Source of the DNA: Bacteroidales bacterium
Lineage (GTDB): Bacteria > Bacteroidota > Bacteroidia > Bacteroidales > P3
DNA: 64,000 nucleotides
Direction: 5' to 3'
Assembly: GCA_017616895.1 (NCBI GenBank)
Contig: JAFZXE010000024.1
Coordinates: 62,001 to 126,000, forward strand
Below, piece after piece: positions 49,122-52,132 of this stretch. Positions within the stretch are counted from its first letter, which is position 1, and each line of letters starts with the position of its first letter. The notes below the pieces were generated by a model. The model was not told where the DNA came from. It was given only the letters and a program-made list of their open reading frames with translations, and ran no database searches. Position numbers and translations under genes: made by a program.

Positions 49122-49316
49122 TATCTGACAAAGCCCCTCACAGGCCTATATAGTGCCGCTGTGTCGGGGCAAGAAAAAGAAAGGGTGTGTCGCAGGGGAT
49201 GCGCGAACAAAAATTTCAGAGCTCATAATCGTGCATCACCCTGCCGTCAGCACCCCAGGCACTGTAAACAACGCCTACAATATAAAACGACGATTTCGGA
49301 TTATTGTTGTAGGCCA
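49122..49316 (+). ncRNA. Candidate structured RNA / leader element, copy 1
   Basis: Three predicted stems. I: GCCCC-CACAG (49133-49143) with CTGTG-GGGGC (49159-49170). II: GGGTGT (49183-49188) with GCACCC (49250-49255), enclosing GCAGGG-ATGC (49192-49202) with GCAT-CCCTGC (49233-49244). III: GCCTACAA (49273-49280) with TTGTAGGC (49307-49314). The whole element recurs at 51924-52132 with changes that keep the stems. It ends 35 nt before a lipoprotein ATG. No reading frame in it is conserved between copies. Family unknown; a cis leader, a trans RNA or a hairpin-type mobile element remain possible. Confidence 0.6.
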
Positions 49317-49351
49317 TAAAAAACTCAAATCAAAAACAAAATTTTACAACA

Positions 49352-49864
49352 ATGAAAAAATATATTTGGTCTACTATAGCCATAATTATGGCAGTTGGAA
49401 CAATCATCCTCGTATCCTGCAACAAAGAAAGCGTTGACAACGCAACAGCCGAACAGGTACCACCTCAACAGACAAAAGTTGCAACTGCACCAGACCCCAG
49501 CTGGGCAAGAGTTACATCTGCGGGTTCCATATTAAGAAGTAAAACACTAAACCCAACACTTTGTTACGAAATACTAATGGGGTATTTTTGTGGTTTCAAA
49601 ATAACATATCCCCTTGCAACAGGCCCATTTACAGTATATCACGGTTCAGGCTCCCCGTATGGTCTTCAAGTAAGTAATAGTTACTTGACAACCAACAACC
49701 TGTCCGCATTAATTGACAGTGCAAAACACGGATATCTGACATTGCATGACGACATTGATATTATGGATACAAGTATGCAATCGACGCTTGGGTTTACCCA
49801 AATTCCCGCAGACAGATACCCTGCTATGCTGTTGGGCGATTCTGCAATTTATATTCAATTTTAA
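49352..49864 (+). CDS. Small putative lipoprotein downstream of RNA element copy 1
   Basis: 170 residues; signal peptide with lipobox-like LVSC after MKKYIWSTIAIIMAVGTII. The mature part begins with a Thr/Ala/Gln-rich linker (NATAEQVPPQQTKVATA) and then a domain with two Cys (LCYEILMGYFCGF). No family recognised. Its leader contains the three-stem element; a strong hairpin terminator follows, so gene and element form one unit. Confidence 0.65.
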   Translation: MKKYIWSTIAIIMAVGTIILVSCNKESVDNATAEQVPPQQTKVATAPDPSWARVTSAGSILRSKTLNPTLCYEILMGYFCGFKITYPLATGPFTVYHGSGSPYGLQVSNSYLTTNNLSALIDSAKHGYLTLHDDIDIMDTSMQSTLGFTQIPADRYPAMLLGDSAIYIQF

Positions 49865-49876
49865 TACGGAAACGTG

Positions 49877-49916
49877 ACAATATGGTGGGCAGGTTTAAAC
49901 CTGCCCACCATATTGT
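49877..49916 (+). terminator. Perfect 40-nt palindromic terminator
   Basis: A perfect inverted repeat: ACAATATGGTGGGCAGG (49877-49893), centre TTTAAA, and its complement to 49916, followed by TTAAAAAG. Being symmetric it could work in both directions. Confidence 0.8.
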
Positions 49917-49965
49917 TTAAAAAGCATCCTAAACACATTAATTCCGCAACCTTTAAAAAACTATC

Positions 49966-51849
49966 ATGAGGAAAATCATTACAATTCTATTTGTCCTCTT
50001 TTGCACTAGTGCTATTGGACAGCAGGTCTATTTTGAATCAAACGGCATCGTCTATGGAATAACCTCGGAGGCGGACAGGGCTACCGAAGTGGAGTTCTAT
50101 GGCTACATAGAAGGCATTTCCGCCTACAGTGGCGCCATCACCATCCCGCAGACAGTAGAATACGAGGGCACGACATACACGGTCACCGCATTGGGAGAGG
50201 AGGCATTTTCGAGCTGCACTGGGCTCTCCTCTCTGAGCCTTCCCTCCACAATCCGTAGCATCGGCGCCTACTGTTTCTACAACTGCAGTCTCACTTCGAT
50301 CCAGCTGCCCGACTCGCTACGTCGCATTGGAGACTTCGCTTTTCTCTACTCTTCCGTAACGTCGCTTCACTTGCCTGCCCATTTCGAAGAGTACGGCGAA
50401 GCCTCTTTCTGGTCACGTAACCTTACAAGCATCACCGTTGACGAAGCCAACCCGCACTACCAATCAATCGACAACTGGCTCTATAGCAAAGATAGCCTAA
50501 CCCTCTGCATCGTCCCCGACGGGGTGACGGGTGTCATCACCGTTCCATCATTCGTACGACATATCGGCAAAGTTGCGTTCGGGTTCAACTCCAACGCATC
50601 GTCGGTGTTGCTACCCGAGGGGCTGATCAGCATCGGCGACTTCTCTTTCAATTCCTGCTCTGTGGTCAACAATGTGGTCATACCCTCTACCGTTACGCAC
50701 ATAGGCATCTGCCCGTTCAGCGATTGCCCGCAACTGACCAACCTCACCATCGCCGACGGCAACACCCACTACGTCATGGACGGCCTGATGCTCTACAGCA
50801 TCAACTACGACACGCTGGTATCCTGCCACAAGTCGGGCGCAACAGTGACCATAAACCCCAACGTGAAGGTTCTTGGCGGGTTTGAAAACAACCGATCGGT
50901 GCGGAATATCGACATACCCGCTGGCGTGACCGACATCCTCGACAACTGCTTCAACGCATGCTCATTCAGCACGATTGCACTGCCCACACATCTGAATTCC
51001 ATTGGCTCCCGCGCCTTCGCCGAAAACAGCAACCTCACCAGCGTCACAATGCCACAGACGCTTCGCACCCTGGGCGAGGGTGCCTTCGCTTGGTGCACCA
51101 AGCTCACCTCCATCGTGATTCCCGACTCGCTCAAGGTGATTCCCAAAGAGGCCTTCAACTCCGACCCGCGACTTTCCACCATCGTCTGGGGCAACGCCGT
51201 TGAGGAGATTGGCTATGCCGCCTTCTGGGCGATGGCAGCCAGAGAGCTTGTGCTGCCGCCCACACTGAAAAAACTCGACGACTATGCCTTCGCTGCCTGC
51301 TCCAACAATCTTAGCGCCGTAACCATACAGAGCCAGCTCGAATCAATGGGCGAGGGCGTCTTCCGCCACGCCAACATCGACCATATCACGTTCACCACCG
51401 GACTTCCTCCCACCACTACTGGCAATGGACCTCTGGCCGAAGTGGGCTCTCTCGATAGCATCGTTATCCCCTGCGGCACCCTCGACTCTTGGCAGTCCGA
51501 CAGCTACTGGGGTCAGTTCGCCGACAAATTCGTCGAAGATTGCAACGGCATCGACAACCCTAACACATTAACGCAATCAAGCAATCAAGCAATAACCGTC
51601 TTCCCCAACCCCACCACCGGCATCCTCCACATACAGCCAAACACTGACGCATTAACCCAATCAGGCAATCAAACAATCTCATCCCTCACCCTCCACAACG
51701 CCATGGGACAACCAGTCATGGTTCAAAATTCAGATTTCAAAATTCAAAATTCCATCGACCTCTCCCCATTGCCAGCAGGAGTCTATTATCTAACAATAAA
51801 AAGCAACGAAACCACAACACGCCACAAAGTCATAAAAGTCACCAAATAG
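49966..51849 (+). CDS. BspA-like leucine-rich repeat protein with T9SS sorting domain
   Basis: 627 residues; Sec signal peptide (MRKIITILFVLFCTSAIG). Tandem ~23-residue LRR_5 repeats (e.g. ALGEEAFSSCTGLSSLSLPS, IGDFAFLYSSVTSLHLPAH) run to ~residue 510. A linker built from AATCAAGC/AATCAGGC-type DNA repeats and a type A C-terminal domain (ITVFPNPTTGIL ... PLPAGVYYLTIKS) follow. Such proteins are exported by T9SS and often bind host or dietary ligands. The same short repeats that fill intergenic DNA enter the coding region at 51565-51755. Confidence 0.9.
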   Translation: MRKIITILFVLFCTSAIGQQVYFESNGIVYGITSEADRATEVEFYGYIEGISAYSGAITIPQTVEYEGTTYTVTALGEEAFSSCTGLSSLSLPSTIRSIGAYCFYNCSLTSIQLPDSLRRIGDFAFLYSSVTSLHLPAHFEEYGEASFWSRNLTSITVDEANPHYQSIDNWLYSKDSLTLCIVPDGVTGVITVPSFVRHIGKVAFGFNSNASSVLLPEGLISIGDFSFNSCSVVNNVVIPSTVTHIGICPFSDCPQLTNLTIADGNTHYVMDGLMLYSINYDTLVSCHKSGATVTINPNVKVLGGFENNRSVRNIDIPAGVTDILDNCFNACSFSTIALPTHLNSIGSRAFAENSNLTSVTMPQTLRTLGEGAFAWCTKLTSIVIPDSLKVIPKEAFNSDPRLSTIVWGNAVEEIGYAAFWAMAARELVLPPTLKKLDDYAFAACSNNLSAVTIQSQLESMGEGVFRHANIDHITFTTGLPPTTTGNGPLAEVGSLDSIVIPCGTLDSWQSDSYWGQFADKFVEDCNGIDNPNTLTQSSNQAITVFPNPTTGILHIQPNTDALTQSGNQTISSLTLHNAMGQPVMVQNSDFKIQNSIDLSPLPAGVYYLTIKSNETTTRHKVIKVTK

Positions 51850-51923
51850 CCAACAAATGGGGTATGCTTCAATCAACCAAGTAAAAAAAAGATTTGCAAC
51901 AATGCAAACCTAAAAAAAGAAGT

Positions 51924-52132
51924 ATGAATCTCATCTAACAAAGCCCCACACAGGTTTAAAAAAGTGCCGCTGTGTCGGGGCGTGAAACGAAAAGGTGCAT
52001 CGCAGGGGATGCTCGAACAAAAAATCAGAAAGCTCATAAATCGTGCATCACCCTGCCGCCAGCACCTCAGGCACTTGAAACAATGCCTACATCCTAAAAC
52101 GTGCAATAAGGCATATTGTTGTGGGCGTAATT
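51924..52132 (+). ncRNA. Candidate structured RNA / leader element, copy 2
   Basis: Same order of stems as copy 1. I: GCCCC-CACAG (51943-51953) with CTGTG-GGGGC (51970-51981). II: AGGTGC (51993-51998) with GCACCT (52062-52067), enclosing GCAGGG-ATGC (52002-52012) with GCAT-CCCTGC (52045-52056). III: GCCTACA (52085-52091) with TGTGGGC (52120-52126). Relative to copy 1, the outer pair of stem II changes G-C to A-T and the inner T.G becomes C-G, both keeping pairing. It ends 25 nt before the next lipoprotein ATG. The preceding 74 nt (51850-51923) show nothing else. Confidence 0.6.

Follow-up and report, generated by a model that had tools for sequence, protein, structure and literature searches.

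Organization of the locus

The window, by which we mean the whole 64,000-nt stretch of Bacteroidales DNA that was analysed, carries on its forward strand an operon that is headed by an ECF sigma factor gene and ends at the first of two copies of a structured RNA element, each of which stands ahead of a lipoprotein gene (Table 1). The second protein of the operon, called ANTI here, had no Pfam match up to E 1 and no NCBIfam match up to E 0.1, and an anti-sigma role for it is only a guess. Pfam and NCBIfam searches with the third, F2, were likewise without a match, while the F2 profile matches 72 ORFs in the fetched neighbourhoods.

Table 1. Features of the window locus, with positions counted from the first nucleotide of the window.
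Feature	Position	Strand	Evidence
ECF sigma factor gene, head of operon ending at RNA copy 1	46724..47230	+	NCBIfam TIGR02937 sigma70-ECF, 44.2 bits (cut-off 42.9)
ANTI protein, hydrophobic segments (by eye)	47306..48016	+	Similar genes at equivalent place in related operons
F2 protein, N-terminal hydrophobic segment (by eye)	48013..48522	+	ORF; F2 profile
F3 small lipoprotein, lipobox C-Q-K-E, invariant late Cys	48523..48981	+	Alignment of 29 members
Copy 1 leader mini-ORF, ATG AAT GAT ATC TGA (M-N-D-I-stop)	49114..49128	+	Start-codon context, stop frame
Copy 1 helix P1	49133..49170; arms 49133-49143/49159-49170	+	Fold, swap test
Copy 1 P1 loop, AGTGCC	49152-49157	+	
Copy 1 helix P2	49183..49255; outer 49183-49188/49250-49255, inner 49192-49206/49229-49244	+	Fold, swap test
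Copy 1 GGCACT tail, able to pair with P1 loop (pseudoknot PK1)	49258..49263	+	Swap test
Copy 1 short domain B (GCCTACA ... AAAACG ... TTATTG ... TGTAGGC)	49273..49314	+	Homology to long form by eye
Cargo 1 lipoprotein	49352..49864	+	ORF; no Pfam match
LRR protein (BspA type) carrying a type IX secretion tail; lies second behind copy 1	49966..51849	+	Pfam LRR_5 9.8e-79, Por_Secre_tail 7.5e-12
Copy 2 leader mini-ORF, ATG AAT CTC ATC TAA (M-N-L-I-stop)	51924..51938	+	
Copy 2 helix P1	51943..51981; arms 51943-51953/51970-51981	+	Fold
Copy 2 P1 loop, AGTGCC	51963-51968	+	
Copy 2 helix P2	51993..52067; outer 51993-51998/52062-52067, inner from 52002	+	Fold
Copy 2 GGCACT tail, PK1	52070..52075	+	
Copy 2 short domain B (GCCTACA ... 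TGTGGGC)	52085..52126	+	
Cargo 2 lipoprotein, dissimilar to cargo 1	52157..52792	+	ORF; no Pfam match

The original prediction, made from the sequence of the window, was of two copies of a three-stem element, and two copies do lie at those positions with their shared blocks aligned in the same order (81% identity over 194 query bases by blastn); GTGCCGCTGTGTCGGGGC occurs twice in the window against 0.08 occurrences expected at up to 3 mismatches. The conserved unit opens with the ATG of a mini-ORF, at 51924 in copy 2, where the predicted element starts, and at 49114 in copy 1, 8 nt upstream of the predicted start at 49122. Of the two compensatory changes claimed for the second helix, G-C to A-T alters both sides, whereas T.G to C-G alters only one, leaving one change rather than two. 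The third stem (GCCTACA/TGTAGGC) is present, but looks like the short form of a longer second domain, and the distance to the cargo start codons, given as 25-35 nt, becomes 37 and 30 nt past the distal stem, or 88 and 81 nt past the end of the model match. The proteins downstream are indeed dissimilar: at E 1e-3 blastp does not pair cargo 2 with cargo 1. Three further covariance-model matches were found in the window's genome (C6:59179, C6:63884 and C13:44090). Absent from that prediction were the sigma factor operon, any leader ORF, the long form of the second domain and the pseudoknot joining P1 loop and tail.

Fold and covariation

Each window copy has a better fold than every one of 200 dinucleotide shuffles, with z-scores of -5.6 (copy 1) and -3.9 (copy 2). 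When the pairing partners were swapped among copies of the window's family, none of 20000 permutations reached the observed pairing for P1, P2 and PK1 (n = 58), for PK2 and P5 (n = 35) or for PK3 (n = 28), and with stricter redundancy cuts (n = 15-33) the same pairings were reached by 0-15 of 20000. Ten control pairs at the looser cut comprised eight that were unremarkable, one that fell below the swapped partners (19989/20000) and one that was borderline (935/20000). Two helices and, in copies that have the second domain, three long-range pairings thus exceed swapped partners.

The columns of PK1 are mostly invariant in the window's family, with an excess at the outermost pair only; these column counts are weak, and the claim for PK1 is carried by the swap test with its controls and by the second family introduced below. 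Pooling both families (GCC/GGC versus GACC/GGTC) gave 0/20000 for PK1 with two null controls, and the second family alone (n = 18) gave 0, 36 and 115 of 20000 permutations for P1, PK1 and P2 respectively. A count over nine copies, the same copies from which the structure had been drawn, lay above all 500 shuffles in four measures and not in a fifth, 'further pair types', which 494 of 500 shuffles reached. Other copies have a longer domain B of about 110 nt (71 of 135 window-family copies by a simple pattern), which adds two further long-range pairings and brings the full form to three.

Distribution of the RNA family

Covariance models spanning only P1-P2-PK1 recovered many homologues beyond the window locus. 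Model R1 matched 57 of 120 genomes of the window's genus, and model R2 matched 72 of 190 genomes of its family. In a second Bacteroidales family R2 matched 26 of 104 genomes, spread over 8 of 17 genera. These counts include the window's own genome wherever it was part of the searched set. Among samples of the order (267-393 genomes), R1 matched only the window's own genome across 295, while R2 across 393 found genome G485, and a search of the family of G485 followed. Limitation of the RNA to one genus or family, which we had entertained, was overturned by G485 and the 26 matching genomes of its family. The one match outside both families (G273, E 0.003) was taken as chance; it consists of a P1-like hairpin with only a 58-aa mechanically called ORF behind it. 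The exact domain-B pattern found 2 stretches in genome contigs and 0 in viral contigs, and is too strict for a census.

Counts given below for the window's family rest on 135 copies, or on those having the needed part. Those for the second family rest on 45 rows, including L246:533 (the minus strand of another hit) and the rows of locus L220, one of which resembles the window's family and was kept among the second-family rows.

A predicted leader ORF abutting P1

An ATG lies 10-25 nt ahead of P1 in 121 of the 135 window-family copies, at exactly 19 nt in 91 of them, while 14 copies lack one there, two of them being cut by a contig end. The leader ORFs of the 121 stop before P1+6 in 58 cases, inside P1 in 15, just past its 3' strand in 32 and later in 16; stops before P1+6 number 58, 31 and 14 of 121 in frames 0, 1 and 2. 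The leader ATG has an A at -6 in 71% and at -13 in 69% of cases, comparable to cargo starts (66% and 76%) and above random ATGs (29% and 26%), whereas an A at -3 is not enriched (40% versus 69% at cargo starts). Mechanically called sigma factor and F3 starts show a weaker -6/-13 pattern (40% and 49%). Such upstream As promote initiation in Flavobacterium, according to the part of PMC6847099 available to us. A Shine-Dalgarno basis for the mini-ORF was rejected, with motifs in 18 of 119 copies and in 15 of 119 control stretches, as was variation of leader length by whole codons (13 of 30 distances other than 19 nt, no better than chance).

The window-family peptide is often just M-x-[F/I/L]-I-stop, four codons for which signs of amino-acid-level conservation are weak, so ribosome position rather than the peptide should matter. 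The leader ORF of the second family has about 15-25 codons and in many copies a conserved L-G-K-N-N-F-x-x-stop end, which points to stalling at the stop codon. Ends of the G-K-N-N-F type occur in 23 of 45 second-family copies, and in 22 of these 23 the stop codon ends 1 nt before P1; 22 of the 45 are without the peptide pattern, and 7 of the 45 carry an L/F-C-K-T-N end instead. Across 16 distinct ends, one of them out of register, variation at codon positions 1-3 was 0.06/0.25/0.56 for L, 0.06/0.06/0.44 for G and 0/0/0.31 for K, whereas the third base showed little or no excess in the motif's N, N and I codons. At the level of sequence, these signatures favour a translated short ORF ahead of the fold, as in leaders of the attenuation type.

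Exported cargo and the sigma factor operon

Behind 124 of the 135 copies a same-strand ORF lies no more than 420 nt away, with its start codon at a median of 132.5 nt. A hydrophobic N-terminal core is present in 108 of these 124 cargo ORFs, compared with 28% of mechanically called background ORFs, and the placement ahead of exported-protein genes, first noted at two loci, is steady. The alignment of cargo ORFs takes in all but 8 of 123. The cargos include lipoproteins, proteins with signal-peptide-like N-termini and some with type IX secretion tails, and in the second family the cargo is often a double-glycine peptide; nothing in the cargo hints at a ligand that a riboswitch might bind. No terminator-like site lies on the + strand between the window elements and their cargos, and only 8 of 124 copies have a promoter-like TAnnTTTG site separating the RNA from its cargo. 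Where copies were inspected by eye, the cargo start falls outside the fold, and plain start-site occlusion is therefore not supported.

Upstream, 78 of 135 RNA copies have a same-strand gene of the sigma factor family no more than 4.5 kb away, and F3 is present in 115 of 190 genomes of the window's family. The sigma factor operon was rejected as an obligatory partner: among the second-family neighbourhoods examined (32 hits, from before the later loci L238-L253) it occurs only in L220, with one 15-bit F3-profile match in L222, and sigma/F3 operons with cargo and without an RNA match occur at L196, L198, L199 and L208.

Apparent exchange between copies

In genomes with several copies, the nearest relative of a copy lies in the same genome in 75 of 114 cases (permuted mean 2.0, maximum 8), and among within-genome pairs with RNA identity of at least 0.80 and both cargos known, the cargos are homologous in only 5 of 80. 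Among 60 loci where the sigma factor, F2 and F3 were all found, RNAs 0.96-0.99 identical within a genome accompany operons whose sigma factors share 18-38% identity (G132, G012, G006, G017 and G126). For related operons in different genomes, the mature cargos are unrelated in 13 of 14 pairs, though genomes recur among the pairs, which are not independent. The copies seem to exchange sequence within a genome. Within a genome, the points at which identity between two copies stops are many and vary from pair to pair, which led us to reject a transposable element or MITE with fixed ends; the hairpin-rich mobile element offered in the original prediction is not supported in this sense. Searches of 50,697 phage records and 72,556 plasmid records were without a match, as was a search of viral contigs with the exact domain-B pattern.

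Proposed function and alternatives

The structure, the position and the leader ORF of this RNA family are supported by sequence computation. With better than even confidence we propose a new family of cis-acting 5' leader RNAs of exported-protein genes, present in two Bacteroidales families, in which ribosomes on the leader ORF would compete with a pseudoknotted fold. Such ribosomes would sit on the 5' arm of P1 or melt it, so that a ribosome translating the leader, or stalled at its stop codon, and the pseudoknot would exclude each other, and the switch between the two states would set expression of the exported cargo. The RNA probably controls the amount of exported protein made. A part in recombination is suggested as well, copies seeming to recombine at the leader. 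An extended form of this proposal, speculative and on balance unlikely, is a lineage-wide regulon. Ribosomes stalled at the stop codon of a short leader peptide would gate the RNA, and through it a single translational cue (an amino acid, an inhibitor or export load) would govern many exported weapons and surface proteins that are unrelated to one another; the RNA would double as the joint at which recombination brings new cargos under this control, and gene conversion would keep it uniform within each genome.

Three alternatives have to be weighed against the competing-fold proposal. The element might be constitutive, stabilizing or processing the mRNA so as to separate cargo expression from the sigma factor operon, with no sensing. 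Its position directly behind F3, whose stop codon lies less than 200 nt upstream of the RNA in 63 of 135 copies, would fit, as would the region upstream of the leader ATG, whose fold in 71 of 119 copies beats the average of 20 mononucleotide shuffles by over 1 kcal/mol; we nonetheless find this distinctly unlikely, since it leaves unexplained both a leader ORF set against P1 and the peptide end of the second family, where among the neighbourhoods examined the sigma factor operon was seen only in L220. A small RNA that acts in trans after processing from the cargo transcript's 5' end, trans action being a possibility raised at the outset, found no support and is very unlikely: a strong fold and several near-identical copies in some genomes speak for it, but a same-strand ORF follows closely behind 124 of 135 copies, the leader ORF is a feature of cis-acting leaders, and only 3 of the 11 copies without cargo have more than 6 kb behind them, the other 8 having less than 330 nt.

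It is also improbable that the RNA is mainly a recombination joint, a repeat kept before exported-protein genes for cargo swapping by homologous recombination, with its fold secondary. The within-genome likeness of copies that rarely precede homologous cargo, the near-identical RNAs beside divergent sigma factors, the many tract ends and the unrelated mature cargos of related operons all favour it, and the distance of less than 300 nt to the fetched end before 9 and behind 8 of 135 copies hints at assembly breaks. Change on both arms in six pairings, however, points to selection on the RNA, third-base variation in part of the leader peptide points to selection on translation, and fixed ends were not seen.

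Under the competing-fold proposal, a large multi-copy RNA leader is added to gut Bacteroidales, known here through metagenome-assembled genomes, and tied both to a short leader peptide and to cargo that includes exported lipoproteins, type IX products and double-glycine peptides. This non-coding RNA is near-identical within some genomes though the surrounding regulators have no more than about 20-40% identity and the products are unrelated, and a common leader could place many unrelated exported products under one control. Both common translational control of secreted products and leader RNAs as joints for cargo exchange can now be tested.

Relation to known RNAs and leader peptides

In TnaC and ErmCL-type leaders, peptides of about 20 residues, where the ribosome stands determines how the RNA behind them folds. 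The present family resembles them in having a putative leader peptide ahead of a structured RNA whose fold would depend on the ribosome, and differs in that no terminator or start-site-occluding hairpin was recognized, the window-family peptide is often of 4 residues, and there are up to three long-range pairings.

The suggestion that the RNA was undescribed agrees with Rfam 15, which gave 0 gathering-level matches in the window and in 10 loci with other copies; at relaxed thresholds nothing fell on the element at E up to 5, and a scan of one full-length copy was empty to E 1. Bacteroidales-1 (RF01693) and Bacteroid-trp (RF01692), listed in the available text of PMC2864571, are likewise structured RNA candidates from the same order or phylum, but no Rfam family matches the window or the ten other-copy loci. 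The available part of PMC10987492 describes uORFs upstream of export-machinery genes such as secDF that were screened for signal or membrane sequences, and these share with our family the phylum, the theme of protein export, a position upstream of a gene that is regulated, in our family putatively, and a conserved peptide end right before the stop codon. By comparison with that part of PMC10987492, the ORFs described here are usually of 4-25 codons, end in L-G-K-N-N-F-x-x or L-C-K-T-N-L with a putative arrest, and abut a pseudoknotted RNA, and the genes behind them encode exported cargo.

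An RNA element with no Rfam match, in two families of Bacteroidales

Two stretches of the window had been predicted to share blocks of sequence in the same order ahead of unlike proteins. Alignment bears this out: the copies are 81% identical across 194 query bases and share an 18-mer whose two occurrences are not expected by chance. Both copies fold far better than shuffled sequences, and an Rfam scan placed neither in a family. As the original prediction had it, the proteins encoded directly downstream (the cargos, i.e. the genes 3′ of the RNA) are not alike: blastp gave no match between them, and neither has a Pfam match. 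The distal stem described there seems to be a reduced form of the second domain (domain B) of longer family members.

Coordinates of the RNA copies and neighbouring features in the window
Feature	Position	Strand	Remark
GGCCTACAA block	49054-49062		upstream of copy 1
RNA copy 1	49114-49314	+	limits set in this analysis
Cargo 1	49352-49864		
Inverted repeat	49875-49918		near-perfect, 40 nt; immediately 3′ of cargo 1
RNA copy 2	51924-52126	+	limits set in this analysis
Cargo 2	52157-52792		
GC-rich hairpin	~52811-52855		with T run; 3′ of cargo 2; by eye
Protein behind cargo 2	52889-54139		

Some smaller features surround the two copies. The GGCCTACAA block resembles the 5′ arm of the distal stem and is perhaps a remnant of another RNA copy, while the inverted repeat, followed by TTTAAAAA (by eye), is perhaps the terminator of cargo 1. 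The protein behind cargo 2 has a weakly thioredoxin-like C-terminus (Thioredoxin_8, E 0.008) and scores 25.9 bits against the ResA model, far under that model's cut-off.

The covariance-model search of Bacteroidales genomes called for at the outset found homologues in two families. DNA searches matched the RNA in 6 of 61 genomes (the window's own counted) and, within the genus, in 21 of 119. R1, a model built from nine copies, matched 57 of 120 genus genomes and, across an order sample of 295, the window's own genome only. R2, built from 33 copies, matched 72 of the 190 genomes of the window's family, P3 (3 of 12 genera), and four of 393 in a further order sample: the window's own, one of the same genus, one of another family and one weak match, which we took as chance. 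In that second family the RNA occurs in 26 of 104 genomes and 8 of 17 genera; R3, the combined model, matched two of 267 order-sample genomes, the window's own and one of the second family. Family P3 includes the genus Candidatus Colimorpha (GTDB UBA1711), found in diverse mammalian guts (PMC8957277, in excerpt). Among the matches listed for Bacteroidales or Bacteroidetes RNA motifs and Bacteroides leader peptides, no title or abstract opening describes the RNA, and the same holds for those on ECF sigma factors with export and noncoding RNA, Bacteroidota arrest peptides, and TnaC-like leaders with pseudoknots; an unnamed prediction of the RNA may nevertheless exist already, for instance in motif lists like the one accompanying PMC8040213.

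The detailed counts rest on the neighbourhoods of 135 copies from 57 genomes. Five copies lie within ~12 kb at one locus (L222:6759-18944, G881:C11), ahead of peptides, lipoproteins and other ORFs. A contig of one second-family genome (L220, G829:C88) carries an RNA of window-family type (148 bits) and the F3/F2/sigma operon described below; either it was transferred recently or the contig was binned wrongly. The third copy in the window's own genome (L003:1679-1842, G000:C6) has, by eye, a ~165-bp insert inside the distal stem, whose inverted ends (AGAAACTGTTTA/TAAACAGTTTCT) make it resemble a small non-autonomous transposable element.

Structure of the RNA

From 5′ to 3′ the RNA consists of a short leader ORF, helix P1 (whose loop has GTGCC or GTGCGCC at its 3′ end), an A-rich linker, helix P2 and an A-G-G-C-A tail, which pairs with the P1 loop (PK1). 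Judged by a simple pattern, 71 of the 135 copies continue into a longer domain B; it holds conserved AUAACG, helix P5 and two further long-range pairings, PK2 (a hairpin loop with the strand ahead of a conserved CUUUAUU) and PK3 (a strand within P5 with sequence after it).

Each copy's own two arms were compared with arms swapped among copies in 20000 permutations, after removal of similar copies. At the looser cut no permutation did as well for P1, P2 and PK1 (n = 58), PK2 and P5 (n = 35) or PK3 (n = 28); stricter cuts again gave none for P1, P2 and PK1 (n = 33) and PK2 (n = 23), with 12 for P5 (n = 23) and 15 for PK3 (n = 15). Of ten control pairs, also taken at the looser cut, eight were unremarkable, the P2 loop and tail paired less than swapped arms (19989/20000), and the P3 loop with a stretch further 5′ was borderline (935, and 215 at the stricter cut). 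The first alignment comprised nine copies; in it, 88.5% of cells were paired in the named structure with eight two-sided pair changes, matched by none of 500 shuffles; further pair types showed no excess in that count (494 of 500 shuffles reached the same value). Within the window's family the PK1 columns are mostly invariant, with excess in the outermost pair only, and from one family to the other GCC/GGC gives way to GACC/GGTC. The swap test on both families together gave 0/20000 for PK1 with two null controls, and the second family alone (n = 18) gave 0, 36 and 115 for P1, PK1 and P2.

A leader ORF ahead of P1

In 121 of 135 copies P1 is preceded by an ATG at a distance of 10-25 nt, exactly 19 nt in 91; the other 30 distances differ from 19 by whole codons no more often than chance (13/30). 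These ATGs have A at -6 (71%) and -13 (69%), as do cargo start codons at the same loci (66% and 76%; random ATGs 29% and 26%); mechanically called starts of the upstream sigma and F3 genes show the pattern more weakly (40%, 49%). Such As favour initiation in Flavobacterium johnsoniae (PMC6847099, in excerpt). Unlike cargo starts, the leader ATGs show no enrichment of A at -3, and Shine-Dalgarno motifs are not enriched before them. A stop falls between the ATG and P1+6 in frame 0 in 58 of the 121 copies (frame 1, 31; frame 2, 14); the remaining 63 stop within P1 (15), roughly where its 3′ strand ends (32, at +35 to +47), or later (16).

The second-family leader ORF usually runs 15-25 codons from a methionine, with a variable N-terminal part. 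It has an in-frame G-K-N-N-F-type end in 23 of 45 copies, with the stop codon finishing 1 nt before P1 in 22 of these, and an L/F-C-K-T-N motif instead in seven of the 45. Over 16 distinct ends the L, G and K codons vary chiefly at their third base, which the N, N and I codons hardly do. From the end positions we infer that in both families P1 should not be able to form while a ribosome sits on the leader stop or moves through.

Genes around the RNA

In the window's family the RNA often follows an operon with the recurring order ECF sigma factor, membrane-protein-like gene, F2 (a protein with a hydrophobic N-terminus), F3 (a small lipoprotein), RNA and cargo: F3 lies <200 nt upstream in 63 of 135 copies and the sigma gene within 4.5 kb in 78. 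F3 occurs in 115 of the family's 190 genomes and, in a phylum-wide sample of 247, in the window's own only; some sigma/F3 operons carry cargo without an RNA match. At three loci (L192 and L204 of G035, L203 of G082) a shared stretch, GTCACAAAnnGGCAAAAAAATATGCATT, lies by eye between F3 and diverged RNA copies and is possibly a promoter.

Downstream, a mechanically called same-strand ORF starts within 420 nt of the model match in 124 of 135 copies (median 132.5 nt). A hydrophobic N-terminal core is present in 108 of these, 49 of which also have a lipobox-like site, against 28% and 8% of 1676 background mechanical ORFs, some of them spurious. Of the 115 first cargos scanned, 14 had a type IX sorting tail and five a Peptidase_S74 domain; at least 82 lacked a Pfam match at E 0.001. 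In one neighbourhood two RNAs stand ahead of double-glycine peptides, and a gene for a radical SAM maturase (TIGR04148, 549 bits) comes next. An ORF of at least 35 codons follows the RNA in 42 of 45 second-family copies; by a simple pattern 22 are short and of double-glycine type (four with the same visible sequence, two also fitting the lipobox pattern, one probably spurious), and a lipobox-like site marks 11 others. TAnnTTTG promoters are rare between RNA and cargo (8 of 124; 13 of 124 within 150 nt upstream, chance 3.4%), so that, as far as this promoter type goes, the two would usually form one transcript.

We consider it probable, with good confidence, that the RNA is a cis-acting leader. 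That a ribosome on the leader ORF would compete with the P1/PK1 fold as a switch we hold only slightly likelier than even odds. With the cargo start outside the fold in copies read by eye, stability, termination and reinitiation could all serve as the output step.

Probable concerted evolution and cargo exchange

The nearest relative of 75 of 114 RNA copies lies in the same genome, against a mean of 2.0 and a maximum of 8 with permuted labels, while only five of 80 similar within-genome RNA pairs have homologous cargo. Among 31 within-genome pairs of full operons, median identity was 0.81 for the RNA, 0.45 for F3, 0.39 for F2 and 0.28 for sigma (between genomes 0.69, 0.37, 0.31 and 0.26), with examples of RNA at 0.98 beside sigma at 0.27 and 0.96 beside 0.18; 21 of 37 RNAs had their nearest relative in their own genome, against 6, 7 and 8 of 37 F3, F2 and sigma genes. 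The ends of identical tracts vary between copy pairs, and where sigma and F2 were related between genomes, mature cargo was unrelated in 13 of 14 pairs. One of these 14 pairs, from two species (L137 of G036, L122 of G079), has diverged very unevenly within the operon, with sigma 98% identical, F2 55% and cargo unrelated. For RNAs homogenised within genomes, unlike cargos and varying tract ends, gene conversion among copies, together with cargos being exchanged at the RNA or close to it, would be the best account.
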